NCBI RefSeq assembly: GCF_006715095.1
Contig: NZ_VFMO01000001.1
Location: 1,736,001-1,800,000, forward strand
Length of the DNA: 64,000 nt
Origin: Yimella lutea
Lineage (GTDB): Bacteria > Actinomycetota > Actinomycetes > Actinomycetales > Dermatophilaceae
Reading direction: 5' to 3'
Positions 31,834 through 50,213 of this stretch are shown piece by piece. The position numbers were made by a program, and so were the translations under genes. Positions within the stretch are counted from its first letter, which is position 1. The number at the start of each line of letters is the position of its first letter. The notes beneath the pieces are model-generated. The model searched no databases and had not been told where the DNA came from. It saw only the letters and a program-made list of their open reading frames with translations.

Positions 31834-34506
31834 ATGAGCGAGAATCCGGCGCCCTATCCGGCTGGATGGGAGGCGGACGTCGTCCTGCGAGACGGCTCCG
31901 TCGCGCAGATCAGGCCGATCCGCCCCGACGACGTCGCGGCCCTGCAGGACTTTCACCGCAAGCAGTCGCCGGAGTCGATCTACCTGCGCTTCTTCGCACC
32001 GATGAAGGAGTTGTCCGACAAGGACGCCAAGCGTTTCGCCAATGTCGACCACGTGGAACGGGTCGCGCTGGTGCTGGAGGGCAACGAGGAACTGATCGGG
32101 ATCGGCCGGTACGACCGGCTCGGCGGGCCCACCGGGACATCGGCCGAGGTCGCCTTCAACGTCTCGGATCATTTCCAGGGGCGCGGTATCGGGTCGGTGC
32201 TGCTGGAACACATGGCGGCCATCGCCCGTGAGGCCGGGGTCGAGGAGTTCACCGCCGACGTCCTGCCGCAGAACCGCAAAATGATGGGCGTCTTCATCGA
32301 TGCCGGGTTCGGCGTCAAACACCACTTCGACGACGGCGTCATCTCGCTCGCGTTCCCGATCGAGCCCACGGACGCCAGTGAAGCCGTCCGGATCGCACGG
32401 GAGCAACGAGCCGAAGCCGCAAGCATCCGCGCACTGCTGAACCCGCGCAGCGTCGTCGTGATCGGGGTGTCCCGCAACCGTGAGTCCACCGGCCGTGACT
32501 TGTACGAACACCTGCGCACCGGTGGTTTCGCCGGTGACCTGTACGCGGTGAACCGCACCGCGCACGCCGAGGTCGAGGGCGACCTGTACACCTGCCTCGC
32601 CGACGTCCCGGGCGACATCGACCTCGCGGTGATCGCGGTCCCGGCGTCCGAAGTCCCGGGCGTGGTCCGCGAGTGCGCCCAGCACGGCGTCCGCGGCGTG
32701 CTGGTCGTGTCGTCCGGATTCGCCGAGGCGGGTGAGGCCGGAGAGCAGTTGCAGCAGGAGTTGCTGCGAACCGCCCGCAACCACGGGATGCGTGTGGTCG
32801 GCCCGAACTCCTTCGGTCTCATCAACACCGCGGACGATGTGCAACTGAACGCGTCGCTGGCACCGGAGCTGCCGGCTGCAGGCGACCTCGGCCTGTTCTC
32901 CCAGAGCGGTGCGCTCGCGATCGCTGGGTTGGAGTCCGCTGCGCGTCGTGGCCTGGGCATCAGCACCTTCGTGTCGGCCGGTAACCGCGCCGACGTCTCC
33001 GGCAACGACCTGATGCAGTTCTGGCTGGACGACGAGCAGACGCGTGCGGTCGGCATGTACCTGGAGTCGATGGGTAACCCGCGCAAGTTCAACCGCATCG
33101 CACGGCGCTTGTCGAAGGCCAAGCCGGTGATCGTGGTGAAGTCGGGTGTCTCGGAGTACGGCGTGCCGCCCGGGCATCGGGTGCGTCCGACCCGGATCCG
33201 GCCGGAGGCCTTCCGGGCGATGCTGCGTCAGGCCGGCGTGATCCGCGTCGAGAACGTGCACCAGATGTTCGACATCGCTCAGCTCGTCGTCCACCAGGAG
33301 ATACCGAAGGGGGAGCGGGTCGCGGTCGTCGGCAACTCTTCAGCGCTGGGTGCACTGGCCGCCGACGCGTGTGTGTCCTGGCGCCTGCAGGTGACCCACG
33401 GACCGGTCAGCCTCGATCCCGAGGCAACGGCACAGGAGTTCGCCGACGCCGTCCGGGCAGCCTTCGAGGACCCGCACGTCGACTCCGTCGTCACCGCGTT
33501 CCTCCCGCCCCGCCAGTCGGCTGGTCTCGACATCGCCGAGGCACTCGGCGAGGTTGCCGGACGCTACGAGAAGCCTTGTGTGACAACGTTCCTCGGTATC
33601 CGCGGGGTATCCGAGGTGCTGGCCGGGCAGCCCCGCGAGGACGGCCGACGCGAGGTCGTCCCGTCGTACGCCATGCCCGAGGACGCGATCCGTGCGCTGG
33701 CCGCCGCCACGCGGTACGGGCAGTGGCTCGACCGGCAGAGCGACGACCTCGTGCTCCCCGAGGGCATCGACCAGGACAAGGCCGCAGCAATCATCGCCAC
33801 GGTGCTGGAATCCGACCCCGACGGCCGCGAGCTCACCGCCCTGGAGACACGGGAGTTGCTGGCGGCGTACGGCATCACCGTCTGGCCCTCGACGGCCGTG
33901 ACCTCGGTGCAGGAGGCGGTCGCAGCCGCCGACGAGATCGGCTACCCGGTGGTGCTGAAGTCGACCTCGCCGATCGTGCGGATCCAGCCGGTGTCGTCGG
34001 TGCGAGCAGATCTTGGCTCCGCCGACGCGGTCGCCGAGGCCTACCGCGCGCTCGATGACCGGCTCGCCCCGATCGGTGCCAACACGTTCGTGGTGCAGAG
34101 GATGGCCGAACCCGGCATCCCGTGCGTGGTGATGTCGGAGGAGGACGAGTTGTTCGGTCCCGTCGTGCGGTTCAGCCTGGCGGGTGTGCCGACCGAGGTG
34201 ATGAACGACTTCGGCTACCGCATCCCGCCGTTCAGCAGCAACGACATCGACGACCTGATCGACTCCGTCCGGGCCGCCCCGATCCTCGACGGTTTCGGGC
34301 ACCGGGTGCCGATCGACCGCGACGCGCTGCGCGACGTCATCGCCCGGGTCTCGGTGCTCGCCAACACCAACCCGCAGATCTACGAACTCAACCTCAACCC
34401 GGTCAACACCCACCGGTGGGGCGCGGAGGTGCTGGGAGCGTCGATCGTCGTCGCGCCGCCGGTCGGCCGCAGCGACAGCGGTCGCCGCGCGATGAGCGGG
34501 TGGTGA
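31834..34506 (+). CDS. GNAT N-acetyltransferase fused to NDP-forming acyl-CoA synthetase (Pat-like)
   Basis: An 890-residue fusion protein. The N-terminal GNAT domain (about 1-175) contains EVAFNVSDHFQGRGIGSVLLE; then a CoA-binding Rossmann domain (from about 190, VVIGVSRNRESTGRDLYEHL), a succinyl-CoA ligase-like domain (FSQSGALAIAGLESAARRGL) and a C-terminal ATP-grasp domain (about 660-890, GYPVVLKSTSP). The domain order is the reverse of E. coli PatZ. It is expected to acetylate protein lysines, typically regulating acetyl-CoA synthetase. The segment GPNSFGLIN replaces the usual GPNCxG, so the ligase half may be a regulatory domain. ATG 31834 is preferred over 31822. Confidence 0.88.
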   Translation: MSENPAPYPAGWEADVVLRDGSVAQIRPIRPDDVAALQDFHRKQSPESIYLRFFAPMKELSDKDAKRFANVDHVERVALVLEGNEELIGIGRYDRLGGPTGTSAEVAFNVSDHFQGRGIGSVLLEHMAAIAREAGVEEFTADVLPQNRKMMGVFIDAGFGVKHHFDDGVISLAFPIEPTDASEAVRIAREQRAEAASIRALLNPRSVVVIGVSRNRESTGRDLYEHLRTGGFAGDLYAVNRTAHAEVEGDLYTCLADVPGDIDLAVIAVPASEVPGVVRECAQHGVRGVLVVSSGFAEAGEAGEQLQQELLRTARNHGMRVVGPNSFGLINTADDVQLNASLAPELPAAGDLGLFSQSGALAIAGLESAARRGLGISTFVSAGNRADVSGNDLMQFWLDDEQTRAVGMYLESMGNPRKFNRIARRLSKAKPVIVVKSGVSEYGVPPGHRVRPTRIRPEAFRAMLRQAGVIRVENVHQMFDIAQLVVHQEIPKGERVAVVGNSSALGALAADACVSWRLQVTHGPVSLDPEATAQEFADAVRAAFEDPHVDSVVTAFLPPRQSAGLDIAEALGEVAGRYEKPCVTTFLGIRGVSEVLAGQPREDGRREVVPSYAMPEDAIRALAAATRYGQWLDRQSDDLVLPEGIDQDKAAAIIATVLESDPDGRELTALETRELLAAYGITVWPSTAVTSVQEAVAAADEIGYPVVLKSTSPIVRIQPVSSVRADLGSADAVAEAYRALDDRLAPIGANTFVVQRMAEPGIPCVVMSEEDELFGPVVRFSLAGVPTEVMNDFGYRIPPFSSNDIDDLIDSVRAAPILDGFGHRVPIDRDALRDVIARVSVLANTNPQIYELNLNPVNTHRWGAEVLGASIVVAPPVGRSDSGRRAMSGW

Positions 34507-34587
34507 CCGCCGGGCGCTGACAGCGCGGCGATCCACATCGCCGCCATCACGCAGCTGCCCCGGTGAGGACATGGGAAGATGGCCCCC

Positions 34588-35190
34588 ATGTCCGCTTCGC
34601 ACCTGACCGCCGCCACCTTGCCCGACGCGTTGTTGCATGACATCGAGCAGGCGGGCTACTACCCGGCCTTGGTCGCCGACGTGTTGAAGGCGGCCCTGGG
34701 CACTCAGGCCGTCGACGCCCACCTGGTACACGCGGAGACCACGATCGACACCGACACCGTGCGTCGGCACATCACCGTGCTGGTGATCAGCGGCGGACGC
34801 CTGGTCATCGCCCACGCCGACGACCACACCCCGTCCCTGGACGCACCCACGATCGTCGCCCGCAACGTCGCCACCGCGACCACCGAGACGGTGCCGCTGT
34901 CGGCGATCCGCGGAGTGATGCTCACCCACGTCATCAACTCGCCGGAGAAGTACGCCGAAGGGTCACTCGGACGTGAGGTGACGGTCACTATCGGTTGGGG
35001 CACGGTCAGCCGCGTCGACCTGCTGCCCGCAGCCTGCGCCGACCCCGACTGCGTCGCCGACCACGGCTACGAGGGCACGGTCACGGCCGACGACATCAGC
35101 GTCCGGGTCAGCGCCGACGCCGACGGCGAACGCAACCTGCAGAACGCACTCGACTTCGCTGCAGCGCTGTCCGCGGTCACCGGTCGCTGA
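34588..35190 (+). CDS. DUF5998 family protein
   Basis: A roughly 200-residue protein with LPDALLHDIEQAGYYPALVADVL, ISGGRLVIAHADDH and VSADADGERNLQNALDFAAAL, matching the actinobacterial DUF5998 pattern. No membrane helix, no catalytic motif; the middle is rich in beta-strand-like segments. It is five bases before the start of the phosphodiesterase gene, so they form an operon. Start 34588 (MSAS) is used; 34579 is an upstream alternative. Function unknown. Confidence 0.8.
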   Translation: MSASHLTAATLPDALLHDIEQAGYYPALVADVLKAALGTQAVDAHLVHAETTIDTDTVRRHITVLVISGGRLVIAHADDHTPSLDAPTIVARNVATATTETVPLSAIRGVMLTHVINSPEKYAEGSLGREVTVTIGWGTVSRVDLLPAACADPDCVADHGYEGTVTADDISVRVSADADGERNLQNALDFAAALSAVTGR

Positions 35191-35195
35191 AGCCG

Positions 35196-36323
35196 GTGAT
35201 ACGCCCGCTGCCCGCAGCGCCGAGCTACGGGGCCACCGACCTCGCCGGGGTGTTGCCGTCGGCGGCAGCTTCGCTCGGCGTCAAAGGGTTTCGCGGCGCC
35301 CTGCCGCAGGCTCGTGGCGCGGTGGTCGTGCTCGTCGACGGTCTGGGCGCCGAACTTCTTCGGGCCCGTTCCGGTCACGCACCGTTCATGCGGACGCTGA
35401 TGATCGACGCGGCGAGTGCGACCGCGGGCTTCCCGTCGACGACCGCGACCAGCATGGGCACGTTCGGCACCGGACTTCCCCCCGGCTCGCACGGTCTGCT
35501 CGGCTACCAGGTGGTCGATCCGGCCACCGACCTCCTGTTCAACGAACTCTCCTGGGAGAACGGACCCGATCCGCGCCGCTGGCAGCGTGAACCGACCGTC
35601 TTCGAGCGCGTTGCCCCTGCCGGGATCGAGACGACGATGGTCGCCAACGACTACTTCAACGGCTCCGGCCTGACGACGGCTGCGCTACGCGGTGCCGGTT
35701 TCGCCACGGCCGCCACGCTGGCCCAACGCGTCGACATCGTGCTGGCCCGCGTGGCTCGGCAGCCCCGCAGCCTCACCTACCTCTACTGGGGAAACCTCGA
35801 CCGCACTGGTCACGAATTCGGTTGCGGCTCATGGGAATGGGTCGATGAACTCGAAGCGGTGGACGCCGAACTGCAACGCTTGTCCGCTCGTCTTCCGCGC
35901 GGCGTCAGCCTCACGATCACCGCCGACCACGGCATGATCGACATCCCCGAATCCAACAAGACCGATATCGCCTTCGACCCCGAGCTCGCCGCCGGCGTCC
36001 GGCACACCGGGGGTGAGATGCGATCCCTGCAGCTCTACTGTGAGCCCGGCGCGACCGACGACGTCCTGGCCGCCTGGACCGCGCGGCTGGGCGAACAGGG
36101 CTGGGTGTTGCCGATGGCCGATGCCGTCTCGAAAGGACTGTTCGGCCCGGTGCAACCACATATCGCGCCCCGCCTCGGCGACGTGCTCGTGGCGATGGAC
36201 GGCCCGTACGGCTACTGGGACTCCCGCGTGATGACCATCACGGTCGGAGAACTCATCGGTCAGCACGGCTCGCTCACCTCGGCTGAGATGGCCGTTCCGG
36301 TGCTGCACCGTCCCGCCGACTGA
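35196..36323 (+). CDS. Alkaline phosphatase-superfamily nucleotide pyrophosphatase/phosphodiesterase
   Basis: A 375-residue protein of the type I phosphodiesterase/nucleotide pyrophosphatase group. GAVVVLVDGLGAELL holds the first metal Asp, ASATAGFPSTTATSMGTFGT the nucleophile Thr, LYWGNLDRTGHEFG and TITADHGMIDIP the remaining metal ligands. GTG 35196 gives the usual start. Probably hydrolyses phosphodiester or sulfate bonds; substrate unknown. No signal peptide, so it may act in the cytoplasm. It is co-transcribed with the DUF5998 gene. Confidence 0.85.
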   Translation: MIRPLPAAPSYGATDLAGVLPSAAASLGVKGFRGALPQARGAVVVLVDGLGAELLRARSGHAPFMRTLMIDAASATAGFPSTTATSMGTFGTGLPPGSHGLLGYQVVDPATDLLFNELSWENGPDPRRWQREPTVFERVAPAGIETTMVANDYFNGSGLTTAALRGAGFATAATLAQRVDIVLARVARQPRSLTYLYWGNLDRTGHEFGCGSWEWVDELEAVDAELQRLSARLPRGVSLTITADHGMIDIPESNKTDIAFDPELAAGVRHTGGEMRSLQLYCEPGATDDVLAAWTARLGEQGWVLPMADAVSKGLFGPVQPHIAPRLGDVLVAMDGPYGYWDSRVMTITVGELIGQHGSLTSAEMAVPVLHRPAD

Positions 36324-36326
36324 GTC

Positions 36327-36342
36327 GACCGGCCAGCCGGTC
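36327..36342. terminator. Weak hairpin between convergent genes
   Basis: GACCGGC at 36327-36333 pairs with GCCGGTC at 36336-36342 around CA, four bases after the stop codon of the phosphodiesterase and just before the convergent amidase stop. The stem is short and lacks a T-tract, so this is only a possible terminator. Confidence 0.35.
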
Positions 36343-36349
36343 AGCACGC

Positions 36350-37435
36350 CTAGGCGAGCAACCGTGACCAGGTATCGAGGCCGATCACTGCGTCGGCGGT
36401 CAGCGAGCGACTGCTCTGGAACGCCTTCACGGCGCGTGAGGTCGCATCGTCGAAGGTGCCGCTGACGGTGGTCCGGTGACCGCGGGCGGTGAGCATCGTC
36501 TGCGCCGCGCGGACCGCATCCCGCGCGGTCGAGCCGGTGCGCAGGGTCGGGGTGAGTCCGGACTCCCAGGTCACCGCGCCGATGATCCCGTCGACGAAGA
36601 ACATCCCTTTGGCGCCCTGGTAGGACTTCACGACGGAGGTCATGGCGGAGTCGTACCCTCCGTCGACCGGCACCGACCGTCCGGCCTGCCGCAGGAGCAA
36701 CTGGGCCGCTCGGACGTTCGGGCTCACGTCGCCGGGCGACACCCTGCCCCACGGCCGAGCTGCCATCGCGGTGCGTACCGAGGCGCGCAGGGCGGGCAGC
36801 TTCTTGTACAACTGTTCCCCCGGACAGTCGGTGCTCTGGTGGTCGCGATGCCCGACGATGATCTTCGGATCGACTCGGTAGATGCTGCAGACGAAGGCGC
36901 ACGTCTCGACCAGACGCTTCCACAACGCCGCGGGTGGCAGGACCTCGCTGTACGTGCCTTCGTTCTCGATGCCGAATGCAATGGGATTCATGTCGGTGCA
37001 GTGGGCGCCGAGCGGGAACTGACTCCGTGTGGCCAGCGACTCCAGCGTGCGGTGACGACCCTCCAGGACGTGCCCGCCCCGGCTGATCGTCAGGTGCTGG
37101 CCGGTGTCGATCCAATCGCGTGCGAAGTGCGACTGCTGAACCGAGCGGGCGAACGCGAATGCGTGCTTCTGGCTGTAGTCGGTGCCGTTCGGGGTTGCCG
37201 TGTGATGAACGATCAACTGTTGCAGCGGCGAGGTCAGACGCACCGGCTCGGTGGGGGGCTTCGCGCCCCACGTGGCACAGGAGGTGATCGGCACCGCGAC
37301 AGCTCGCGCGCCGGCCCCGGACACTGCACCGAGGGCCGACGGCCGGGAGCCGAGGGTGAGCAGGGCACCGGCACCGAGCGTGCCGGTGAGCATGGCTCTG
37401 CGAGAGACGTCCATCGAGCGGTCGAGCAGGTTCAT
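36350..37435 (-). CDS. Secreted N-acetylmuramoyl-L-alanine amidase with peptidoglycan-binding repeats
   Basis: A 361-residue exported Amidase_2 enzyme that cleaves the MurNAc-L-Ala bond. A twin-arginine signal (SRRAMLTGTLGAGALLTLG) is near residue 11. The zinc-binding catalytic region has IVHHTATPNGTDY, FGIENEGTY and IVGHRDHQSTDCPG. Two C-terminal peptidoglycan-binding repeats (about 240-360) are seen. It is the third gene of a leftward set with the MepA-like and M15 hydrolases. Tat export is inferred from the RR motif. Confidence 0.88.
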   Translation of the reverse strand: MNLLDRSMDVSRRAMLTGTLGAGALLTLGSRPSALGAVSGAGARAVAVPITSCATWGAKPPTEPVRLTSPLQQLIVHHTATPNGTDYSQKHAFAFARSVQQSHFARDWIDTGQHLTISRGGHVLEGRHRTLESLATRSQFPLGAHCTDMNPIAFGIENEGTYSEVLPPAALWKRLVETCAFVCSIYRVDPKIIVGHRDHQSTDCPGEQLYKKLPALRASVRTAMAARPWGRVSPGDVSPNVRAAQLLLRQAGRSVPVDGGYDSAMTSVVKSYQGAKGMFFVDGIIGAVTWESGLTPTLRTGSTARDAVRAAQTMLTARGHRTTVSGTFDDATSRAVKAFQSSRSLTADAVIGLDTWSRLLA

Positions 37436-37529
37436 CAGGGTCCTTCCATAGGAGGTCGGGTGTTGACGAGGCCGGCGTCGGAATGGGGGAATCCGGCGCC
37501 GGCCCCCGGTAGGTCGTGCACAGCAGGTG

Positions 37530-38510
37530 TCAGCGGTACCGCACGTGCACGTGGTTGTCGTGATTCGGGTACGCCGTGGTCAGCCCTTCCTTGATCAACA
37601 CCGGATCGTTGAAGTAGACGAGTGCGATCTGCCCGGGAGCTGCGGCACGGATCGACTTGACCAGTTGCCGGGTGGCCGATCGGTCGTAGGCGGAGGATTT
37701 CCAGGTGATGCGACCCGCCGTGCACTGAGCGTTGTCGGTGCGGATCGGCCACAGATCGACATCGACCCCGAGTTCGTGGGAGGCGTGACCGGCAATGTCG
37801 CCGCCGTGCTCGAAGCTGATGTCGCCCACGGGGACCTTGCCCTGCCCGGTCGCACGGAAGGAGGCCGCTGCCTTGTTCAGCTGGGCGATGGTCGAGGCAG
37901 CACCCCAGTTGGCGGTCTTGTTCCCGTCCGGATTCTGGTCACAGATGTTCGTCCACGACGGCGTCATGTAGTGCCACGTCAGGTTGCGCCAGGTCGTTGC
38001 TCCGGCCACACCGTCGGCGCTGATGCCAGCGTGCTTCTGGAACGCGGCCACCGCGGATCGGGTACCTGCGCCGAACTTGCCGTCGACCGTGAGGCCGGCG
38101 CCGCGCTTGTTGTTCAGCAACATCTGCAACGCCTTGACGTCGTTGCCGGACGAGCCGCTGCGGACGGTCACGGTCAGGGCATCCCAGGTGCGGGCGCCCA
38201 CCACGCCGTCGGCGGTCAGACGCTTGGACTTCTGGAACGCGACGACAGCCGTCTTGGTGGCGTTGCCGAACGTTCCGTCAGCTCCTACCGAGTGGCCACG
38301 TGCGGTCAGCAGGTACTGCACTGCTTGCACGTCGGCGCCGCGGTTTCCCGCAGAGAGCACGGGATACGCCGCCCGGCTGAATGCGTCGGCGCTCGGGGCG
38401 AGCGCCGCAGCGGTGGCGAAAACGGAACCGGTAGCAACCGCGGCCGCCGCGATCCGCAACGCGATTCGCCTCCTTTGCGTGGTCGGTGTCATGTGTGTCA
38501 TGCGTGTCAT
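37530..38510 (-). CDS. Secreted MepA-like murein endopeptidase with two peptidoglycan-binding repeats
   Basis: A 326-residue exported protein. After a signal peptide (IAAAAVATGSVFATAAALAP) come two peptidoglycan-binding repeats (about 55-165; VQYLLTARGHSVGADGTFG and the parallel LQMLLNN unit), then a LAS-type metallopeptidase domain like penicillin-insensitive murein endopeptidase: GDISFEHGGDI, HASHELGVDVDLWP and the final PNHDNHVHVRYR supply His-Asp-His zinc ligands. It should cut D-Ala-mDAP cross-links or related bonds. Six bases after the M15 gene, so one operon. ATG choice among three clustered ATGs is uncertain. Confidence 0.86.
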   Translation of the reverse strand: MTRMTHMTPTTQRRRIALRIAAAAVATGSVFATAAALAPSADAFSRAAYPVLSAGNRGADVQAVQYLLTARGHSVGADGTFGNATKTAVVAFQKSKRLTADGVVGARTWDALTVTVRSGSSGNDVKALQMLLNNKRGAGLTVDGKFGAGTRSAVAAFQKHAGISADGVAGATTWRNLTWHYMTPSWTNICDQNPDGNKTANWGAASTIAQLNKAAASFRATGQGKVPVGDISFEHGGDIAGHASHELGVDVDLWPIRTDNAQCTAGRITWKSSAYDRSATRQLVKSIRAAAPGQIALVYFNDPVLIKEGLTTAYPNHDNHVHVRYR

Positions 38511-38516
38511 CGCGAC

Positions 38517-39254
38517 TCACACCCCGCACTTGGACGCGGACCAGATCTTGCCCGAGCGCCAGTCGGCGTGCACATGGTCGCTGTGGGCGGGGTAACCAGG
38601 ACCGAAGATGCCGCCGTAACCGTTACGGGTGGCGGCCTTGGTGATCGAGCAGTAGGTCTGCGAGCCCATCGGCACGAAGTCGATCGCCATGCCGGTCGTG
38701 TGCATCCCGCTTCCGCTGCCGCCGACGGAACGGTCGCAGGCCGGGTCGCGGTAGCCGGAGGTGATCTTCAGCGGCTTGTCACCCATCTTCCTGCGCAGCC
38801 CCTCCGCCTGCCACAGCGAACGGCGCAGGTTCGCCTTGTGCCAGGAATTCCCGGTGAAGCCCTTGCCGCAGTTGTTGCTCGCCTCCCGGTAGGTGAAGTG
38901 GATCGGAGTGCAGTCGGAGGAGGTGAGGGAACGCAGCTTGCTGAAGGTCTTCGTGCCGGCCACGCCGTCCGCCGTGAGTCCGTAAGCTTTTTGGAAGCCG
39001 CGGACGGCAGCAACGGTCTGGTCGCCGTAGACGCCGTCGGCACCCATCACCTGACCCGAGGGCACGAAGGCGGCGACACGGATCTGCAGTTCCTTCACGG
39101 CGGCGCCTCTGCTGGACTTGCGGAGTGTCGAGCTCCACGAGTCGCATCCGGCGGCCGACGCCGTGTCCGAGTTGTTGACACTGACAGCGACCGCTCCGGT
39201 GAACGTGAGGGCGCCGGCCGCGGCGATCGCGGCCACTCGCTTGGTTAGCTTCAT
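38517..39254 (-). CDS. Secreted M15-family D-alanyl-D-alanine carboxypeptidase with peptidoglycan-binding domain
   Basis: A 245-residue exported protein with signal peptide (VAAIAAAGALTFTGAVAVSV), one peptidoglycan-binding domain (about 45-115, FQKAYGLTADGVAGTKTFS) and an M15_3-type peptidase domain: SGSGMHTTGMAIDFVP and HSDHVHADW with the zinc ligands. It should trim peptide stems. AAGGAG is 8 bases before ATG 39252-39254. First gene of the leftward hydrolase operon, divergent from a STAND regulator. Confidence 0.87.
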   Translation of the reverse strand: MKLTKRVAAIAAAGALTFTGAVAVSVNNSDTASAAGCDSWSSTLRKSSRGAAVKELQIRVAAFVPSGQVMGADGVYGDQTVAAVRGFQKAYGLTADGVAGTKTFSKLRSLTSSDCTPIHFTYREASNNCGKGFTGNSWHKANLRRSLWQAEGLRRKMGDKPLKITSGYRDPACDRSVGGSGSGMHTTGMAIDFVPMGSQTYCSITKAATRNGYGGIFGPGYPAHSDHVHADWRSGKIWSASKCGV

Positions 39255-39353
39255 CGTTCTTCTCCTTGTGTGATACCTGTGGTGTGACTCCGTGTGAACT
39301 GAAGTGGAACGGAACCAGCTTTCAGCGGGAGCGCGTCTCACGCCACGGACAAC

Positions 39354-39367
39354 CCGGACATGTCCGG
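39354..39367. promoter_or_regulatory. Perfect 14-bp palindrome in the divergent hydrolase/regulator gap
   Basis: CCGGACATGTCCGG reads the same on both strands. It lies 100 bases upstream of the carboxypeptidase start and 98 bases upstream of the chosen regulator start, with an adjacent partial copy (CGGACA at 39347-39352). It is a likely operator for the neighbouring HTH regulator or a related protein; this is inferred from position. Confidence 0.5.
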
Positions 39368-39464
39368 TCGCCCTTTCGGTCGTACGGGCTGGGAAGTCCA
39401 TACGCTCGTCAGGCCCGAAGCCGACGAAGCGTTGGTCATGGGGAGTGGCGATGGAGGCTCGTGG

Positions 39465-41951
39465 ATGTCTTTGGAAGCGATCGACAATGCGTTGGACTTC
39501 GCGCACTTGCTGCGGGCGTTGCGGCACGACGCCGGGCTGACCCAGGAGGCTCTCGCCGAACGCAGCGGCCTGAGCATCGAAGGCATCAGCGCCCTGGAGC
39601 GGGGGCACCGGCTGCACCCTCGACGGTCCACGATCGATTTGTTGGCTCGTGCATTACAAGTCGATGAGTCGGTTCGTCGCCAGATGGATGAGCGGGCTCG
39701 GCGACCCGCACCCACCCGAGCCTCGCCCCCGGACTCGGGCACGCCCGCGTCGGCACGGGAGTCCGATCGAAGGCCCACGGACAACCGCGCCGACCACCAC
39801 CGCATCGTGCCCGACCAGTTACCGGCACCACCGACGTGTCTGTTCGGACGTGCGGAGCTCGTGGACCACGTCGTCCGCGCTGTTCGTGGGGGTGCTCGCA
39901 CGGTCGTACTGAGCGGAATGGGTGGTTTGGGAAAGTCGGCGGTGCTCGTCCAGGCTGCGCACCTGTTGGCCGACGAATTCACCGACGGTCGGATTCACCT
40001 CGATATGTGTGGGGGACAGCGAGATTCGGCGGTGACAGCGGACGACGCCCTGTCCTTCGTCCTGGAGTCGTTGCTCGCTGAAGGCGCGCCCGTACCGACC
40101 CGACGTGCGGCGGCGGTCGCCATGTACCGATCGCTCAGCGCGGGTCGAAAGTTGCTGATCGTGCTGGACGACATGCCCCCCGACCTTCCACTGGACGATC
40201 TCGTGCCCGGAGGCGACTGCGTTCTGCTGGTCAGTGGACGCGCCGCGCCACCGGTCGGCGTGGATCTGGTGCACGCGGCGGTGCCGGTGCTCGATGACCG
40301 AGCCGCTCGCGCGTTGCTGCAGGACCTCGTCGGTGCGCCACGTCTGGAAGCCGAACCGGAAGCGACAGCGTCCCTGCTGCACAGTTGTGCGGGCCTGCCG
40401 CTGGCGCTCAAGATCGTCGGCGCGCGGCTCCAGCGCCGCACGTCATGGCCGATCTCTTACCTGGCCGAACGCGTTGCGAGACAGGGCGATCGCCTCCAGG
40501 AGTTGCGGATCGGCGATGTCGCCGTCCGCAGGTGCATCGAAGAGACGTTGTGGCATCTGGAGACGGGGCGCAGTGACCTGCATGATGCACACCGTCTGTT
40601 CGTGCGGATCGGGATTCTGCGCAGGCGCTCGGTCTCGGTCGTCACCGCGGCAGCGCTGGCGGACATCTCGCTGGACCGTGCGCGGGCCGCGTTGGAGCGG
40701 CTGACCGACACGAGCCTGCTGGACAGCACCGGCCCGGGGCAGTTCAGTGTTCACGACCTCGTCCACGACCACGCACGCGCACTTGCCGATGAACTCGACG
40801 GCGCCGAGGTCGCCGAGATCAGGCGTCGCTGCCGGCGCGCGTACGCCGCCTTGGGTTGGACTGCCCGCGAGCAGGTGCGTCCGAGCCACCCCGAGGGCTT
40901 GGCGCAGCACCACGCGCAGGCTTGGCCGCACGACTTCGACGCGGTGGGGTCTTTGTCGGCGATCGCCCTCGAGGTCGACCACATCCGCGAACTGTTGGCC
41001 ACCGGGCTGGCGTCGCAGGACGAGGCGGAACAACGCGAGTCCGTGCTGCTGGCGCTCGCCTTCACTGCGTACTGCGTCACTCGGTCGATGTTCTTCGACT
41101 GGTCCCAGCATCTGCAGGACGCACTGCGCACCTCGGTCGGCCAGGAACCGGTGCTGCGGGCGTCCTTGTTGCTGGATCTCTCCACGGCACAGACCTCGCG
41201 AGGCGCGCAGCAGGAGAGCCTGAGGTCGGCACGCGAGGCGGACCGTATTGCCGAGGAGCTCGGCTCGCCAAGGCTGCAGGCTACAGCGGCGATGGCACTG
41301 TCACTGACCTCCGGTCGCGTCGGCGCGCCGGACGCCTACGGGTTCGCGGTCCGCGCGCTGGAACTCGCCCGGCAGGTCAAGGACGACTTCCTGGAGGCGG
41401 CGGCGCTGCGCGATGTCGGACTTCAACTGTGCCGTGACGAGCACCTGCACGAGGGGCTGGATGCCGCGACCCGCTCACTGGAGATCTTCGAACGCATCGG
41501 CAATGAGCGTGGCCGCTGCATGGGTCTGATCAATGTGGGCGTCATGCGCAGGCGGCTCGGACAGCGTGAGCCGGCCAGACAGTTGCTGGAGGACGCGGTG
41601 GCGTCCGCGCGTGCCTGTGGCGATCGCGAGTTGGAGACCGAAGCACTCGATGAACTCGGCCGTTGGCATCTCGGGGCCGGTGACCGCGACCGTGGCCTCG
41701 AACTCATGGAATCCGGTCTGTCCCTCGTCGACGCGCGTGGCGCGAGGCAGTGGGAAGCCGGAATCCGGACGCGGATGGCGTCCGCGCTGGCCGAAGCCGG
41801 CATGTGGGACGACGCCATCGAACACTGGGATATCGCTCTGCAGATCTGTCGACAGCGCGGGGAGGAAGGCATTGCAGCGGATCTGCAGCGGCAACGAGAA
41901 CGAGCTCTGTGCGGCGAGGCAAGTGACCACTCGCGTCCCCTGTCGGGCTAA
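39465..41951 (+). CDS. STAND regulator: XRE helix-turn-helix, NB-ARC ATPase and TPR repeats
   Basis: An 828-residue signal-transduction ATPase. N-terminal XRE-type helix-turn-helix (LRHDAGLTQEALAERSGLS, about 15-65), a Pro/Arg linker, then an NB-ARC domain: P-loop LSGMGGLGKSAVL (about 148-160), Walker B LLIVLDDM, and GLPLALKIVGARL. The C-terminal half is a TPR superhelix of about ten helical hairpins. I chose ATG 39465 because GGAGG sits at 39453-39457 with seven bases of spacing; the upstream ATG at 39360 lies inside a palindrome and has no ribosome site. Expected to oligomerise on ligand binding and control transcription. The divergent hydrolase operon is a possible target. Confidence 0.88.
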   Translation: MSLEAIDNALDFAHLLRALRHDAGLTQEALAERSGLSIEGISALERGHRLHPRRSTIDLLARALQVDESVRRQMDERARRPAPTRASPPDSGTPASARESDRRPTDNRADHHRIVPDQLPAPPTCLFGRAELVDHVVRAVRGGARTVVLSGMGGLGKSAVLVQAAHLLADEFTDGRIHLDMCGGQRDSAVTADDALSFVLESLLAEGAPVPTRRAAAVAMYRSLSAGRKLLIVLDDMPPDLPLDDLVPGGDCVLLVSGRAAPPVGVDLVHAAVPVLDDRAARALLQDLVGAPRLEAEPEATASLLHSCAGLPLALKIVGARLQRRTSWPISYLAERVARQGDRLQELRIGDVAVRRCIEETLWHLETGRSDLHDAHRLFVRIGILRRRSVSVVTAAALADISLDRARAALERLTDTSLLDSTGPGQFSVHDLVHDHARALADELDGAEVAEIRRRCRRAYAALGWTAREQVRPSHPEGLAQHHAQAWPHDFDAVGSLSAIALEVDHIRELLATGLASQDEAEQRESVLLALAFTAYCVTRSMFFDWSQHLQDALRTSVGQEPVLRASLLLDLSTAQTSRGAQQESLRSAREADRIAEELGSPRLQATAAMALSLTSGRVGAPDAYGFAVRALELARQVKDDFLEAAALRDVGLQLCRDEHLHEGLDAATRSLEIFERIGNERGRCMGLINVGVMRRRLGQREPARQLLEDAVASARACGDRELETEALDELGRWHLGAGDRDRGLELMESGLSLVDARGARQWEAGIRTRMASALAEAGMWDDAIEHWDIALQICRQRGEEGIAADLQRQRERALCGEASDHSRPLSG

Positions 41952-41979
41952 GCGGGCTCGGCCTCTACAGTCGTACCTC

Positions 41980-42681
41980 GTGGCTGAACTCGTCTTCTTC
42001 TCCGGCACCATGGACTGCGGCAAGTCCACACTCGCCCTGCAGATGGAGCACAACCACCGAGCGCGCGGGCGCGAAGGAATCATCTTCACCAAGAACGACC
42101 GCGCCGGCGCGGCCGTCATCTCCTCCCGTCTCGGCCTGTCGCGTGAGGCGGTCGAGGTGACCGACGAGCTGGACTTCTGGGAACTGGTCATCGCGCAGAC
42201 CGCCCATGGCCGCGAGATCCATTACGTCATCTGCGACGAGTCCCAGTTCTACGAGCCGGAGCAGATCGAGCAGCTCGCGCGGGTCGTCGACGAATGCGAC
42301 ATCGACGTGTACGCGTTCGGCATCATGGCCGACTTCCGCACCCAGCTCTTCCCGGGTTCGAAGCGACTGATCGAACTCGCCGACAGGTTGCAGGTGCCGC
42401 AGGTCGAGGCGCTGTGCTGGTGCGGTCGCGGTGCCACTCACAACGCCCGCGTCGTCGACGGACACATGGTCATCGAGGGCGAACAGGTCGTCGTCGGCGA
42501 CGTCGCCGGTGAAACCGCGCACGCGGTCGAGTACGAGGTGCTGTGTCGACGTCATTACATGCGCCGGATGACCTCGGCCGCCGCCCGCCTGCAGAGCGGT
42601 TCCGCGGACATTCTTCCCTTCGATCTCGGATTGTGCCCCCTGCCTTCGGCGCCGATGGGCGATACTTCATCCGGGCAGTGA
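41980..42681 (+). CDS. tdk: Thymidine kinase (type II)
   Basis: A 233-residue thymidine kinase for the dTMP salvage pathway. P-loop FFSGTMDCGKSTLALQ at residue 8, DESQFYEPEQIEQLA with the catalytic Glu, lasso/zinc region CWCGRGATHNARV and VLCRRHYM. GTG 41980 fits the family start. The C-terminal 35 residues are family-unlike and probably disordered. It is 28 bases after the STAND gene stop on the same strand but likely has its own promoter. Confidence 0.93.
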   Translation: MAELVFFSGTMDCGKSTLALQMEHNHRARGREGIIFTKNDRAGAAVISSRLGLSREAVEVTDELDFWELVIAQTAHGREIHYVICDESQFYEPEQIEQLARVVDECDIDVYAFGIMADFRTQLFPGSKRLIELADRLQVPQVEALCWCGRGATHNARVVDGHMVIEGEQVVVGDVAGETAHAVEYEVLCRRHYMRRMTSAAARLQSGSADILPFDLGLCPLPSAPMGDTSSGQ

Positions 42682-42733
42682 CACCGGCGGATGGAAGCAT
42701 GATCGACATGGACGCCGGGCAGGGGACGAGGCG

Positions 42734-44356
42734 ATGAGCGAGCGGGACGAACACCGGCCCACCGCCCCGTTGCCGCGCCCGCGCACGGAGCACTCGGACG
42801 ACCGGCGGCGGGAGTCCCGTCGCTACGACGATCGTGGCTACGAATCCCAGTACGGACGTGACGACGACGATCGCCGTGACCGACGCCGGTTCGACGACAG
42901 GTACGCCGACCGCCGAGATGGACCGTCAGGTGGCACCGCGATGTCGTCCTCGCGCACCCGGGTAGTCGGTCGAGGAGTAGCACGCTCGGCCGGCGCTGTC
43001 GCCCGGATGACCGCCGGTGCCGGACGAAGCACCCTGAAGGCTGCCCGTCGGGCGAGCAACTCGCACGGCGCCGGTGAGTCCGGTCTCGGCCGCCTCATCG
43101 AGGTGCACGCGTTCAGTTCGGCCGGCGACGCCGCCGTCGCCATCGGTCTGGCCGGCACCGTCTTCTTCGCCGCACCCGGGGAGCAGGCCAAGACCCAGAC
43201 GCTGCTGTTCCTGCTCCTCACGATGCTTCCGTTCGCGATCGTCGCGCCCCTGATCGGTCCCGTGCTCGACCGGCTGCGCCACGGTCGCCGGTGGGCGATC
43301 GGCGGCACGCTCGCGATCCGCGCCTTCTTCTGTTGGGTGCTCGCAGGAGCGGTTGCCGCTGAATCCACCCTCCTGTTCCCGGTCGCGATGTGCGTGCTGG
43401 TCTCGTCCAAGGCGTATCTGGTCAGCCGATCCGCGGCGACCCCACGCCTGCTGCCCGATTCGATGACGCTGGTGAAGGCCAACAGCCGGCTGTCGCTGGC
43501 CGGAGTCGTCGGCGCCGTCATGGCCGGTGCACTTGCCGGTGGTGCGGCGAAGTTCGGCGGGTCGGAGTGGGCACTGCGAGTTGCATTCGTCCTGTTCACG
43601 ATCGGCACGATTTTGGCGATCCTGCTGCCGCCCCGGGTCGACTCGACCATCGGCGAGAAGCCCGCGCCGATGTTCCGGCGCAAGACGAAGTTCCCGATCT
43701 CCGGCGACGTCATCTCCGCGCTGCGGGCGAACGCCGGCCTCCGCTGGCTGTCCGGCTTCCTGACGCTGTTCATGGCCTTCCTGATGCGCGCCGAACCGTT
43801 CCCGGGCTGGGAGAACAAGCAGACCCAGTTGCTGGCCCTCGTGCTCGGCGCAGCGGGACTCGGCAATGCTCTCGGCACGGTGATGGGCAACCTGATGAAG
43901 GTTGCCTCACCGCGGATCATCGTCCTGGTGATGTTGATCGTCGACGCTGCCGTGGTGGTGTTCGCGGCGCTGAACTTCCGCCTGTGGACGGCCGTCCTGG
44001 TGGCGCTCGTCGCCGGTGTCGGACAGCAGTTGGGCAAGCTCGCGCTCGACTCATTGATCCAGGACCGCGTACCCGAACACATGCGCACCAGCGTCTTCGG
44101 GCGCTCGGAGACGCTGCTTCAGCTCTCGTGGGTCATCGGTGGCATCGTCGCCGTCGTCATCCCCACCGACGCGACGCTCGGCATGTACCTGTCCGCGGCT
44201 TTGCTGGTGGTGTGGGCGGGCCTGGTGCTGTGGTGGCACACCGGGCGCACGGTTCGTTCCGGTTCGACCGGCCCGTACGACCGGGTGCATGACAGCCCGA
44301 CGATGGGCATCAGTCGCAAGCAGGCGATGAACCCGGCACCGCGCGAACGACGCTGA
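42734..44356 (+). CDS. MFS transporter
   Basis: A 540-residue major-facilitator-type membrane protein. Residues 1-100 are cytoplasmic and strongly charged (RRRESRRYDD and DDDDRRDRRRFDDRYADR), then about 11-12 transmembrane helices, e.g. GLAGTVFFAA, LLFLLLTMLPFAIVAPLIGP, and YLSAALLVVWAGLVLWWHT. GPVLDRLRHGRRW is the loop-2 MFS motif. It is likely an exporter or a permease of unknown substrate. 52 bases after tdk. The charged N-terminal extension is unusual for the family. Confidence 0.85.
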   Translation: MSERDEHRPTAPLPRPRTEHSDDRRRESRRYDDRGYESQYGRDDDDRRDRRRFDDRYADRRDGPSGGTAMSSSRTRVVGRGVARSAGAVARMTAGAGRSTLKAARRASNSHGAGESGLGRLIEVHAFSSAGDAAVAIGLAGTVFFAAPGEQAKTQTLLFLLLTMLPFAIVAPLIGPVLDRLRHGRRWAIGGTLAIRAFFCWVLAGAVAAESTLLFPVAMCVLVSSKAYLVSRSAATPRLLPDSMTLVKANSRLSLAGVVGAVMAGALAGGAAKFGGSEWALRVAFVLFTIGTILAILLPPRVDSTIGEKPAPMFRRKTKFPISGDVISALRANAGLRWLSGFLTLFMAFLMRAEPFPGWENKQTQLLALVLGAAGLGNALGTVMGNLMKVASPRIIVLVMLIVDAAVVVFAALNFRLWTAVLVALVAGVGQQLGKLALDSLIQDRVPEHMRTSVFGRSETLLQLSWVIGGIVAVVIPTDATLGMYLSAALLVVWAGLVLWWHTGRTVRSGSTGPYDRVHDSPTMGISRKQAMNPAPRERR

Positions 44357-44379: not shown

Positions 44380-45741
44380 CTACTCCTTCGGCCCGCGCTT
44401 ACCGAACATGATGTCGTCCCAACTGGGCACCGACGGGCGACCCTTGCGGGCCTGACTCGGACGAGACGGCACGGCCTCAGGTTCGTCGTCGCCCCGGCCG
44501 TCGGACGGCTCGGCCGGCGTATAGACGGCCTGCTTCGAGGCAACCTCGTCGACGTCTGAATCGGCGTCGGACACGTCGTCGCCGAAGCTCGGACCCGGTT
44601 CGATGTCCGGGTGATCCGAGGCGTCTTCGAAGGCATCATCCCCAGCCTCGTCGACGGCGACGTCCTCAGGATCCTGGGCGACCACCTCATGTCGCAACGG
44701 CTCGACCTCGCCGAGACCGAACAGGTCGACCGTGCCGGTGACGGGGTCGTGGCCCAGTTCGTCGACCGTGGGCTGATCCGGCTCCTCGGCGCCCCCGTCC
44801 GTGTCGTTGCCGGCTGCGGCGGACTGCTTGCCCGCCGGGTGATTGCCGGACGGGTGGCTCTCGCCCTTGCGGCGCGCGTTCGCCTTGCGACGGTTCTTCG
44901 ACCGCTCGCGCATCACCGATACCAGGTCGACCGGACGGTCGTCCTTGTTCGCGACCGGCGTGGCCGCGTCGGCGTCGGTGTCAGCGGAGTCCGACGGCTC
45001 CGGTGAGCTGTCCGTCTCCTGCGCCTCGTCCGGCGCAGCGTGCGGGATCTTCGGTGCGGAGACACGTGCGGGACGGTGGGGCGCGGGCGACTGCTGATCG
45101 AGACCGCCTTCGGCAACGACGTCGTAGACGACCGATTTGGCGGGGTTCTTGCCGAACGGCATCGTCGCGGTCGGCTGGTCGTCCTCGCTCAGCCAGCGTG
45201 CTTCGTCGTCGGTCGGGTGCAGGCTCTGGGTCTGCGCGTCGTAGCGCCAGGTCGCGACGCGGGCACGTCCGCCGGCGGGGAAGCGGCACTCGATCGTCCA
45301 CCCGCGGTCGCCGCGGTAGGCGTCCCAGTTCATGTCGGATGCGGCCACGCCACGGTGCGAAAGACGGCTGCTGACGCGTTCGCCGACCGTGGTGCCCTGC
45401 TCACGTCCGCCGACGCGGACGTGCAACGGCAGCTTCTGTGCGGTGAGCGCCACGTGGTCGCGCTCGGCGCGGATCGGCGGTTCGAATCGGCCGACCTTGT
45501 CGGTGGACCAACCGGTGCGCTCGGCGACCTCGTCGATCGTCAGACCGGAGCGCAACAACGCCTGGATGTCGCGGGGACGCACGTTCGGGTCGACGCCGTC
45601 GTCGTTCAGCCGGGAGCGCACGGCGCGGACGGCGCTGCGCAGGGCATCGTCGATCTCGACCTGGTGCTGTTCACCGTCCTCGTCGACGAGGAGCAGTCGC
45701 GTGCCTTCGTCATCGACACCGACGAATCGCAAGTCGCGCAT
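44380..45741 (-). CDS. sepH: Septation protein SepH (DUF3071)
   Basis: A 453-residue cell-division protein. N-terminal DUF3071 with MRDLRFVGVDDEGTRLLL, the helix-turn-helix segment LRSGLTIDEVAERTGWSTDKV, and the long disordered C-terminal half rich in Asp, Pro and Arg ending SWDDIMFGKRGPKE. In Streptomyces SepH binds FtsZ and stimulates its assembly. ATG 45739-45741 (MRDLRFVG) is the usual start. Convergent with the MFS gene and divergent from hemH. Confidence 0.9.
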   Translation of the reverse strand: MRDLRFVGVDDEGTRLLLVDEDGEQHQVEIDDALRSAVRAVRSRLNDDGVDPNVRPRDIQALLRSGLTIDEVAERTGWSTDKVGRFEPPIRAERDHVALTAQKLPLHVRVGGREQGTTVGERVSSRLSHRGVAASDMNWDAYRGDRGWTIECRFPAGGRARVATWRYDAQTQSLHPTDDEARWLSEDDQPTATMPFGKNPAKSVVYDVVAEGGLDQQSPAPHRPARVSAPKIPHAAPDEAQETDSSPEPSDSADTDADAATPVANKDDRPVDLVSVMRERSKNRRKANARRKGESHPSGNHPAGKQSAAAGNDTDGGAEEPDQPTVDELGHDPVTGTVDLFGLGEVEPLRHEVVAQDPEDVAVDEAGDDAFEDASDHPDIEPGPSFGDDVSDADSDVDEVASKQAVYTPAEPSDGRGDDEPEAVPSRPSQARKGRPSVPSWDDIMFGKRGPKE

Positions 45742-45892
45742 GTGTATGTATGCCTTCCCGGGCTTCGACAAACCGTGGTTCACCTTGCCACGGTGAGTGT
45801 GATCGGACCGGACGGCACGCCGGGCGCGAGGCACACACGAGACATCGACGGGTGCCGCGCCCCGCCCCGGGGACGAGGGTGACAATGGACCC

Positions 45893-47161
45893 ATGAGTTC
45901 TCCCACCGCCGACCCCCGTGACCCTGCGGACTCCGGCTCCGCACCCATGAACCCCGAGGCAGCGTCGGATGCCACCACGGATCCCACCACGGATCCCACC
46001 ACGGATCCCACCACGGACATCGGGCAGACCACCCCTGAGCCCCAGCCGTCGGGCGAGGGTGGGGACACCGCTCTGCCGCCGTACGACGCGATCGTCCTGC
46101 TGTCGTTCGGTGGTCCGGAGTCACCGGAGGAGGTCATGCCCTTCCTGCGCCGGGTGACCGGTGGACGTGGCATCCCCGACGAGCGACTGGAAGAAGTGGC
46201 CCACCACTACATGGAGTTCGGCGGTCGCAGCCCCATCAACGACCAGTGCCGGGCCCTGCAGTCGGCGTTGCACGACGAACTGCGCCGGCGGGGCATCAGC
46301 ACCCCCGTGCTGTGGGGCAACCGCAACAGCGAACCGTTCCTGACCGATGTGCTGCGGGAGGCCTACGACGGCGGCATGCGCAATGTCGTCGCGCTCACCA
46401 CGAGCGCCTACTCCTCCTACAGCTCGTGTCGGCAGTACCGCGAGAACATCGCTGCCTCGCTGGCCGAACTCGCCGAGGAAGGCAAGGAACTCCACGTCGA
46501 CAAGGTGCGCCAGTACGCCACGCATCCCAGCTTCGCACGCACCAACATCCGGCTGATCACCGACGCCGTCCGTGCGGCCGACCAGCCTGACGACTCCAAA
46601 CTGCGGGTCGTGTTCGTGACCCACTCCATCCCCGAGGCGATGGACGACACCTCCGGCCCGGGCGATGGGGAGGGAAACCTGTACGAGCACCAGCACGACG
46701 AACTGGCGCACGTCGCACTCGACGAGATCGGCGCGACGCTCGACCGCGACCTCGACGGCGCACTGGTCTACTGCTCGCGGTCCGGCCCGCCCAGCCAGCC
46801 CTGGCTCGAGCCCGACATCAACGATCACCTGCGTTCGCTCGCCGAGGACGGCGTCACGGACGTCGTCGTGGCACCGATCGGCTTCATCTCCGACCACATG
46901 GAGGTGAAGTTCGATCTCGACACCGAGGCCGCCGAAACCGCACAGGAAGTCGGGCTGCGCATGACGCGCGTCCCGACCGTCGGTATCGACCTGGAGTTCG
47001 TCAGCGGGCTGGTCGACCTCGTCGAGGAGCGCGCCGCTCAGGCCCGCGGTGAGCAGGTGACGATGCCGGCGTGGCCGGGTGAGGCGATGCCGCCGATCTG
47101 TCGCCCGGGCTGTTGCCCGAACCTGCGTACCGCGCTGCCGGCTGCCTGCGGCTCCGACTGA
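45893..47161 (+). CDS. hemH: Ferrochelatase (CpfC/HemH type), with cysteine-rich ends
   Basis: A 422-residue ferrochelatase. The first 70 residues are a Pro/Asp/Thr-rich tail with TTDP repeats; the enzyme core begins at YDAIVLLSFGGPESPEEVM. Core motifs: VVFVTHSIPEAM with the catalytic His, and EVKFDLDTEA. Cysteines in YSSYSSCRQYREN and in the C-terminal MPPICRPGCCPN match the pattern of actinobacterial [2Fe-2S] ferrochelatases. In Gram-positives the substrate is usually coproporphyrin III (CpfC). Stop overlaps the inositol monophosphatase gene start (TGATG). Confidence 0.9.
   Translation: MSSPTADPRDPADSGSAPMNPEAASDATTDPTTDPTTDPTTDIGQTTPEPQPSGEGGDTALPPYDAIVLLSFGGPESPEEVMPFLRRVTGGRGIPDERLEEVAHHYMEFGGRSPINDQCRALQSALHDELRRRGISTPVLWGNRNSEPFLTDVLREAYDGGMRNVVALTTSAYSSYSSCRQYRENIAASLAELAEEGKELHVDKVRQYATHPSFARTNIRLITDAVRAADQPDDSKLRVVFVTHSIPEAMDDTSGPGDGEGNLYEHQHDELAHVALDEIGATLDRDLDGALVYCSRSGPPSQPWLEPDINDHLRSLAEDGVTDVVVAPIGFISDHMEVKFDLDTEAAETAQEVGLRMTRVPTVGIDLEFVSGLVDLVEERAAQARGEQVTMPAWPGEAMPPICRPGCCPNLRTALPAACGSD
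45974..46017. repeat. Tandem 12-bp repeat in the ferrochelatase N-terminus
   Basis: ACCACGGATCCC occurs three times in a row (45974-46009) followed by a partial fourth copy. It encodes TTDP units of the disordered tail. Units are multiples of three bases, so copy-number change keeps the frame. Confidence 0.88.
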
Positions 47162-47979
47162 TGGCATCGCACGACGCCGCAGCGCTGGAACAGGTTGCGC
47201 GCGACGTGGCGGTGCTCGCCGGCCGGTTGATCGTCGAGGAACGCCCCGCCGGGCTCGGTGTCGCGCAGACGAAGACCAGCCTGACCGACGTCGTCACCGA
47301 GATGGACCGGCGCAGCGAACGTCTGATCCGCGACGAGCTCGCACACCGTCGTCCGGACGACGGTGTGCTCGGCGAAGAAGGCACCAGCGACGCGGGCTCG
47401 AGTGGGATCACCTGGGTGGTCGACCCGATCGACGGGACGGTCAACTACCTGTACGAGATTCCGGCGTACGCGGTGTCGATCGCAGCCTGTACCGGCGACA
47501 TCTCCCGGCCGGAGGAACTCGTCCCCGTCGCGGGCGCGGTCTACAACCCGGTGACCGACGAACTCTTCCACGGCCATCGTGGCGGGGGAGCGCACCTGAG
47601 CATCGGGTTGCGTCAGCAGCCGCTTTCGGTGAGCGGCACGAAGGATCTGGGGATGGCGCTGCTCGGTACGGGCTTCGGGTACGAAGCGGCCAAGCGGGAG
47701 CGACAGGGCGCTGTGCTGGCCGAGCTCATCGGTGACGTGCGCGATGTGCGCCGGATCGGGAGCGCGGCGCTCGATCTGTGCTCCATTGCGGCCGGACGCC
47801 TGGACGTGTACTTCGAGTCCGGCCTCAATCCGTGGGACCGTGCGGCCGGTCAGTTGCTGGTCCGGGAAGCGGGCGGAGTGGTCCGCGGGGCAGACCAGGA
47901 GCCCGACAAGCACATGGTGATCGCAGGCCCGGCGGGGTTGGTCGAGCAGGTGGCGCTCCGGGTGCTTGCTGACGGATGA
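47161..47979 (+). CDS. Inositol monophosphatase family protein (SuhB-like)
   Basis: A 272-residue Mg-dependent sugar phosphatase. Metal-binding motif WVVDPIDGTVNYLYE, GEEG, and LNPWDRAAGQLLVREAGG near the C-terminus. Could act on inositol-1-phosphate (for mycothiol or phosphatidylinositol) or on other phosphates. Starts at ATG 47161 within the hemH stop (TGATG), so it is translationally coupled to hemH. Substrate specificity is not visible. Confidence 0.88.
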   Translation: MASHDAAALEQVARDVAVLAGRLIVEERPAGLGVAQTKTSLTDVVTEMDRRSERLIRDELAHRRPDDGVLGEEGTSDAGSSGITWVVDPIDGTVNYLYEIPAYAVSIAACTGDISRPEELVPVAGAVYNPVTDELFHGHRGGGAHLSIGLRQQPLSVSGTKDLGMALLGTGFGYEAAKRERQGAVLAELIGDVRDVRRIGSAALDLCSIAAGRLDVYFESGLNPWDRAAGQLLVREAGGVVRGADQEPDKHMVIAGPAGLVEQVALRVLADG

Positions 47980-48142
47980 CCACCCACGAGGGTGAAACCG
48001 CGGACCCGGTGCGCACTCCTCGGCCGCGATGGTGCACAATTCCCGCGCGGCGGGCACAAAAAACGGGTCGGGAGCGTTACCGCGACTGAAGCCGGGGTAC
48101 CGCCCGGCCGACGCACCGAACTGACGACGAAGAAGGACCTCG

Positions 48143-48436
48143 ATGGCCACCGATTACGACGCTCCACGAAAGACCGACGACGACCTCTCCGAGGACAGCC
48201 TCGAGGAACTCAAGTCGCGTCGCAACGACACCAGCGGTCAGGTCGACGTCGACGAGACCGAGCAGGCAGAAGGCTTCGAGCTGCCGGGTGCGGACCTCTC
48301 CGGTGAGGAGATGGAGATCCGCGTCGTCCCGCGTCAGGCCGACGAGTTCACCTGCTCACGCTGCTTCCTGGTCAACCACCGCAGTCAGCACGCCGGCGAG
48401 CGTGACGGCCTGCCGATCTGCAAGGACTGCGCCTGA
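48143..48436 (+). CDS. DUF4193 zinc-ribbon-like protein
   Basis: A 97-residue acidic protein starting [20 protein letters not shown] and ending [15 protein letters not shown]...CKDC; the C-x2-C and C-x2-C pairs form a likely zinc site. Family DUF4193 is widespread in actinomycetes, often next to dut. Function unknown; some family members are co-ordinated with RNA polymerase binding in mycobacteria, which I did not confirm. It precedes dut by six bases. Confidence 0.85.
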
Positions 48437-48441
48437 GCGCT

Positions 48442-48966: not shown

Positions 48967-48971
48967 GAACC

Positions 48972-50191: not shown

Positions 50192-50213
50192 CCACTGCCG
50201 CCCATCTCCGAGG

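Follow-up and report, generated by a model that had tools for sequence, protein, structure and literature searches.

STAND/NLR-like regulators are abundant in actinobacteria, yet to our knowledge few have known targets. Among those described, the nearest to the gene considered here is AfsR, a Streptomyces activator of SARP/BTAD-NB-ARC-TPR build that acts at two 11-bp direct repeats (the AfsR box) in its target promoter and has NOD and TPR parts that are inhibitory until ATP binds; the same source names MalT as a STAND activator (PMC10936776). Here, we describe a cassette of Yimella lutea in which an AfsR-like STAND gene stands opposite three genes for secreted peptidoglycan hydrolases, within a stretch of 64,000 nucleotides (NZ_VFMO01000001.1, positions 1,736,001 to 1,800,000) that we call the window. 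We think it probable, though well short of certain, that this is a mobile STAND-controlled lytic-enzyme regulon, aimed most likely at other bacteria. Control of the hydrolases by the STAND protein is strongly inferred from sequence.

An AfsR relative and three wall hydrolases

The STAND gene (39465..41951, plus strand; start codon placed at 39465, not 39360) encodes an XRE head followed by AfsR-like NB-ARC and TPR parts. Pfam matches the N-terminus to HTH_31/HTH_3 and the NB-ARC domain at 30.6 bits (cut-off 23.5), and the protein carries the motifs GMGGLGKS, LLIVLDD, GLPL and VHD, which we take to fill the Walker A, Walker B, GLPL and MHD-like roles; as judged from these features, it is an NB-ARC type STAND NTPase. 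Its closest PDB entry is AfsR (8k60; E 2.3e-97, positions 47-801 of profile A1). No BTAD domain was matched by Pfam, and the score against the NCBIfam AfsR model (189.4 bits) lies far below the cut-off of 1430.

The minus strand encodes a secreted N-acetylmuramoyl-L-alanine amidase (36350..37435; Amidase_2 and two PG_binding_1 copies, with a Tat-type signal by inspection), a secreted MepA-like LAS metallo-endopeptidase (37530..38510; two PG_binding_1 copies and Peptidase_M74) and a secreted M15 DD-peptidase (38517..39254; one PG_binding_1 copy and M15_3). The Amidase_2 domain scores 55.1 bits (Pfam cut-off 26), and residues His77/His78, His196 and Cys204, presumably the zinc site, are invariant in an alignment of relatives (A3). 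The MepA-like protein shows both the M74/LAS fold and the HxxxxxxD...HxH motif. The M15 protein resembles the 1LBU muramoyl-pentapeptide carboxypeptidase end to end (phmmer, 1lbu_A, E 1.3e-55, query 36-245), and its His185, Asp192 and His229, invariant in alignment A2, line up with the 1LBU zinc-ligand positions, numbered as we assume them to be; it is a predicted DD-carboxypeptidase of the 1LBU type. The first-pass annotation had described an XRE-NB-ARC-TPR ATPase divergent from three secreted hydrolases of these kinds, all with peptidoglycan-binding units, and the domain matches and coordinates bear it out.

The cassette occupies 36324..41979, between the stop of a phosphodiesterase gene and the start of a thymidine kinase gene, and these two genes are directly adjacent without it in all three genomes examined (G002, G006 and G019). 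Among three genomes of the genus searched, the STAND gene was found in the window genome (G000) and one congener (G001), and no match was found in another (G002). Window and G001 have in common a recombination tract (36050..44100) with identity steps at ~36.05 and 44.1 kb, which holds the cassette, the thymidine kinase gene and an MFS gene. Because identity is high inside the tract (97.0% over 8,099 aligned positions of 36000-44100) and much lower in the flanks (80.5% over 3,782 positions of 32000-35800 and 75.2% over 5,900 positions of 44500-50500), this block was probably exchanged recently between the two species. Presence in G001, absence from G002 and the sharp tract fit an accessory trait. 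A minus-strand frame at 44380-46173, which we take to resemble SepH, sits just past the right end of the tract.

A recent phage origin of the hydrolases was considered and rejected. In a tblastn search of 50,697 phage records, the three enzymes hit 24, 268 and 17 records, with identity below 60% throughout and no match spanning 80% of the query. A plasmid search with the STAND protein matched 185 records, likewise all below 60% identity (27-29% among the 20 matches listed).

Pairing of STAND genes with hydrolases

We defined a close STAND subfamily as sequences with a profile score above 800 bits, among 186 family genomes with up to five candidates scored per genome. It comprises 10 genes at 8 loci in 7/186 genomes and five genera (one gene each in G000, G001, G029 and G127; two each in G020, G025 and G126), and the best family match below it reaches 436.6 bits. 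Seven of the 10 were included in the query alignment of the profile; both G126 genes and the G127 gene were not rows. In a single-sequence protein search with the STAND protein (7,989 candidates scored), at least 13 clusters scored 360 bits or more, and the next score was 220; the G020 proteins (312 and 339 bits) did not appear in that list. A contig scan with the lone window protein as query found no relatives.

At 8/8 close loci, a hydrolase is encoded no more than 3 kb from the STAND gene, so that the co-occurrence proposed as a test in the first-pass annotation is found across five genera. By the control profiles, which were home-made and seeded from STAND-adjacent hydrolases and may therefore miss other kinds, a hydrolase or PG_binding protein is present at 6 of the 21 other family STAND loci (four of the six being BTAD-headed arrays), at none of nine chosen order-level loci and at 4 of 78 named STAND loci drawn from the best 80. 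The 21 loci, together with one inside stretch L139, are all the remaining family STAND matches.

The enzymes differ from locus to locus (assigned by Pfam unless stated otherwise). By identity with the window, G001 has amidase, M74 and M15; G029, which is Intrasporangium flavum by sequence identity, has Phage_lysozyme2, amidase and, by alignment, M15; G025 has two amidases and M15 (by alignment) at its first locus and M74 and M15 (by alignment) at its second. The sets are M23, Phage_lysozyme2 and amidase in G020; GH19, M23, Phage_lysozyme2, Amidase_2 and YkuD in G126; and CHAP and M23 in G127. Hence, the idea of a conserved trio holds insofar as hydrolases occur at every close locus, while the exact amidase-MepA-M15 combination was found only in the window genome and one congener. 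Since the enzymes vary while the STAND gene stays, a functional link is favored over a frozen block. M15 can also occur alone, because in G198, G494 and G449 (L144-L146, 20 kb each) it stands without a STAND gene or other hydrolase in the profile scan; no close operator site of the kind described below was found at these three promoters.

Several neighbors deserve mention. At or beside three of the seven close loci searched are genes that we take to be disA and/or radA (L050 7369-16339, L052 10429-17689, L139 15276-16601), which suggests that this neighborhood is an insertion hot spot; a tie of the cassettes to c-di-AMP, the DisA product, would be bare speculation. A small secreted protein adjoins the STAND gene in G126 (L138 9140-9613), with a related protein in the corresponding position in G020 (L052 4883-5404), and in I. 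flavum M15 and STAND are separated by another small secreted gene that resembles I36 by eye (L049 3287-3736); neither the G126 nor the I. flavum protein has a Pfam or NCBIfam match.

A candidate operator that follows the DNA-binding head

The proposed operator (39343..39367, minus strand) consists of a 9-bp direct repeat, TGTCCGGGT-TGTCCGTGG, which forms the 18-mer TGTCCGGGTTGTCCGTGG (39343-39360), and an abutting inverted TGTCC copy. It lies upstream of both genes, 88 nt from the M15 start codon and ~98 nt from the STAND start. In 7/7 loci compared, the gap separating the first secreted gene from its neighbor contains TGTCC/GGACA elements. The core TTGTCCGTGG is found there in sense orientation, 55-97 nt upstream of the start codon and with 0-2 mismatches; at L049 it is best placed before the small secreted gene beside STAND. 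By eye, the 9-bp direct repeat is present in four loci, whereas the repeats of G029 and G126 are inverted. The window word GGGTTGTCCG recurs with at most one mismatch in 6/6 other loci, compared with 200 shuffled sets in which the best word reached one, two or three loci in 72, 118 and 10 sets, respectively, and CGGGTTGTCCGTG recurs with at most two mismatches in 5/6 other loci, against a shuffle maximum of 2. A 10-mer word test with two mismatches was uninformative (observed 6; reached by 30 of 200 shuffles), as was a scan for promoters and terminators, which gave 0 promoters where 0.3 were expected and 2 terminator-like sites where 2.4 were expected.

Across whole genomes, TGTCCGGGTTGTCCGTGG matches exactly once each in G000, G001 and G127, always at the STAND locus, and no other site within two mismatches was found in G000 or G001. 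With up to two mismatches allowed, the only sites in G025 are two M15 promoters, and the sole site in G020 is the amidase promoter. The exact pattern TGTCCGGGTTGTCMSKGK occurs nine times in the 186 genomes, five times at STAND-hydrolase promoters (G000, G001, twice in G025, and G127) and four times inside predicted coding sequence (G079, G094, G105 and G139).

A second set of loci offers a comparison. SARP/BTAD-headed STAND proteins stand beside hydrolases in the Luteipulveratus genomes G125, G126 and G127 and in G020, from another genus; the head was assigned by Pfam on L136 from G125 (the same stretch as L156) and by sequence likeness in the other three. Their neighbors are M15-like (our own assignment, with no Pfam match), M23 and Phage_lysozyme2 genes, M23 being absent in G020. 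The triple repeat RTAGC-N6-RTAGC-N6-RTAGC, with units 11 bp apart, is found in 4/4 of these promoters, 71-78 nt upstream of the first start codon. It occurs nowhere else in the fetched stretches, which total 2.70 Mb and partly overlap, although it was defined on these four loci, three of them from one genus. TTGTCCGKG occurs in 0/4 BTAD promoters. The repeat type follows the DNA-binding head, which is the best argument that these STAND proteins are the regulators. In the Luteipulveratus array of L136 (12198-14056), both Phage_lysozyme2 and M23 hydrolases carry fused Inhibitor_I36 domains, and by eye the L158 and L227 arrays look alike.

These patterns bear on whether STAND and hydrolase genes merely travel together, the promoter element belonging to some other regulator. 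The varied gene orientation at the close loci (divergent, convergent or tandem), which leaves no single common promoter, would fit such co-travel, but the element changes with the head (TGTCCG for XRE, 11-bp repeats for BTAD), all five noncoding exact TGTCCGGGTTGTCMSKGK matches in the 186 genomes sit at XRE-STAND loci, and the congener G002, without STAND, has no exact element. We regard co-travel as very improbable.

Several results nevertheless weigh against a STAND-controlled regulon. The eight close loci share a common descent and so are not eight independent events, and 15 of the 21 other family STAND loci have no hydrolase seen by our profiles. Both operator patterns derive from the very loci in which they were counted, so that for TGTCCGGGTTGTCMSKGK only its absence elsewhere is independent, and the first secreted genes of L049 and L138 were picked after the motif was seen. 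The exact 18-mer site TGTCCGGGTTGTCMSKGK is absent from three of the seven STAND genomes (G020, G029 and G126), and the core match at the L049 M15 promoter is poor (three mismatches). Further sites of TGTCCGGGTTGTCCGTGG occur away from the loci in G127 (three with two mismatches), G029 (one with one mismatch and one with two) and G126 (one with two), and genomes without XRE-STAND have 0 (G002), 1 (G125), 1 (G006) and 4 (G019) two-mismatch sites. The BTAD promoter of L158 holds a two-mismatch match to the XRE core; that of L227 has one on the other strand.

Other sites were also noted. In G020, an unlinked gene for a secreted PG_binding protein (L216), NlpC/P60-like by eye, has a three-mismatch site 115 nt upstream of its start. 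This suggests a wider regulon, but the site is one of 14 within three mismatches in that genome. A candidate site in G025 (C2:151790-151816) was discarded because it falls within a coding frame. The window genome has two further PG_binding clusters (L159 6689-10866, at G000 C1 ~256.7-260.9 kb, and L160 5003-8435); no STAND gene was present in the stretches fetched around them, and the nearest one-mismatch 13-mers are ~3-4.5 kb off.

Proposed circuit, its target and known systems

We propose that the XRE head recognizes the TGTCCG element between the M15 and STAND genes and that, by analogy with AfsR, the NB-ARC and TPR parts would keep the protein inactive until a signal and ATP release it. 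The released protein would switch on the M15-MepA-amidase operon and possibly its own gene, and the exported enzymes would jointly cut the peptidoglycan amide bond, stem peptide and cross-links. Gene content, co-occurrence, the conserved promoter element, insertion and recombination can be read from the sequences themselves, whereas we infer DNA binding, activation instead of repression, a signal and an outward target; the AfsR analogy makes a gated activator most likely. The walls of other bacteria would be the likeliest target, for competition or scavenging. Outward action is favored because the cassette is patchy, exchanged and enzyme-swapping, and because its M15 protein resembles a secreted DD-peptidase and relatives of its MepA-like protein turned up in Herpetosiphon and Streptomyces in a protein search. 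Herpetosiphon has a predatory habit.

The main rival is that the same circuit serves self-lysis or wall turnover, the enzymes acting on the producer's own wall during growth, separation, recycling or stress lysis. Exported enzymes reach that wall first and their PG_binding domains favor attachment, whereas patchy presence (7/186 family genomes; not found in G002), changing enzyme sets and recent exchange would be unusual for housekeeping turnover. No immunity gene is evident, no further gene being called inside the cassette, so that self-damage is possible; this speaks for self-lysis and against an outward target, but immunity may be unlinked or reside in wall chemistry. We consider self-lysis rather unlikely but a serious contender. 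The earlier idea of a regulated lytic unit is supported by the co-occurrence at 8/8 loci and the shared promoter element, outward lysis being likelier than self-directed lysis. A third explanation, anti-phage or stress suicide with the STAND protein as immune sensor and the hydrolases as the means of killing the infected cell, draws on the accessory, recently exchanged nature of the cassette and on the frequency of STAND ATPases in conflict systems. However, PADLOC gave no specific match to a catalogued defense protein, only weak generic HTH/TPR matches for STAND (best E 5.2e-7) and nothing for the three hydrolases; the NB-ARC-TPR part is AfsR-like; and abortive infection would be slow if it had to pass through secreted enzymes whose promoter carries a dedicated element. 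This explanation is very improbable, slightly more so even than mere co-travel.

More tentatively, and with rather less than even confidence, we speculate that these loci form a family of mobile "lytic arsenals" in which AfsR-like STAND proteins with exchangeable XRE or SARP heads and head-specific operators would sense an imported cue, such as neighbors' wall fragments, and produce a mix of swappable secreted hydrolases on demand. If true, this would be a transcriptional weapon system replacing constitutive bacteriolysins. For the STAND protein here, a candidate operator and regulon can be named, together with an output that can be read as wall lysis, making binding, gating and the inducing signal directly testable. 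An outward-acting cassette would provide mixes of complementary antibacterial enzymes in a form both mobile and inducible.

The first-pass annotation knew of no described system with this layout, and no report of a STAND-hydrolase pairing was found in the literature searched, most subscription journals lying outside it. A STAND component is also encoded by some operons whose effector domains attack peptidoglycan (PMC7159879), but these are a different type of system. The window M15 protein is related over its whole length to the 1LBU zinc DD-peptidase, whose source strain we take to be Streptomyces albus G. The exocellular lytic mix of that strain, "actinomycetin", consists of complementary secreted wall enzymes; we know of no gene linkage or STAND regulator for it, and a literature search on the name found no title on this subject. 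Bacteriolysins such as lysostaphin and zoocin A are secreted peptidoglycan hydrolases, some of them M23, that are used as weapons and have immunity genes; none is evident in the cassette. MalT-type STAND activators, with a DNA-binding head different from XRE, gate a regulon by an inducer; the likeness lies in this gating, and the targets differ. AfsR aligns with the window protein over the full length of the NB-ARC and TPR parts, but the latter has an XRE head in place of the SARP head, a 9-bp element of the TGTCCG type in place of 11-bp repeats, and a link to wall hydrolases where AfsR is linked to antibiotic genes.

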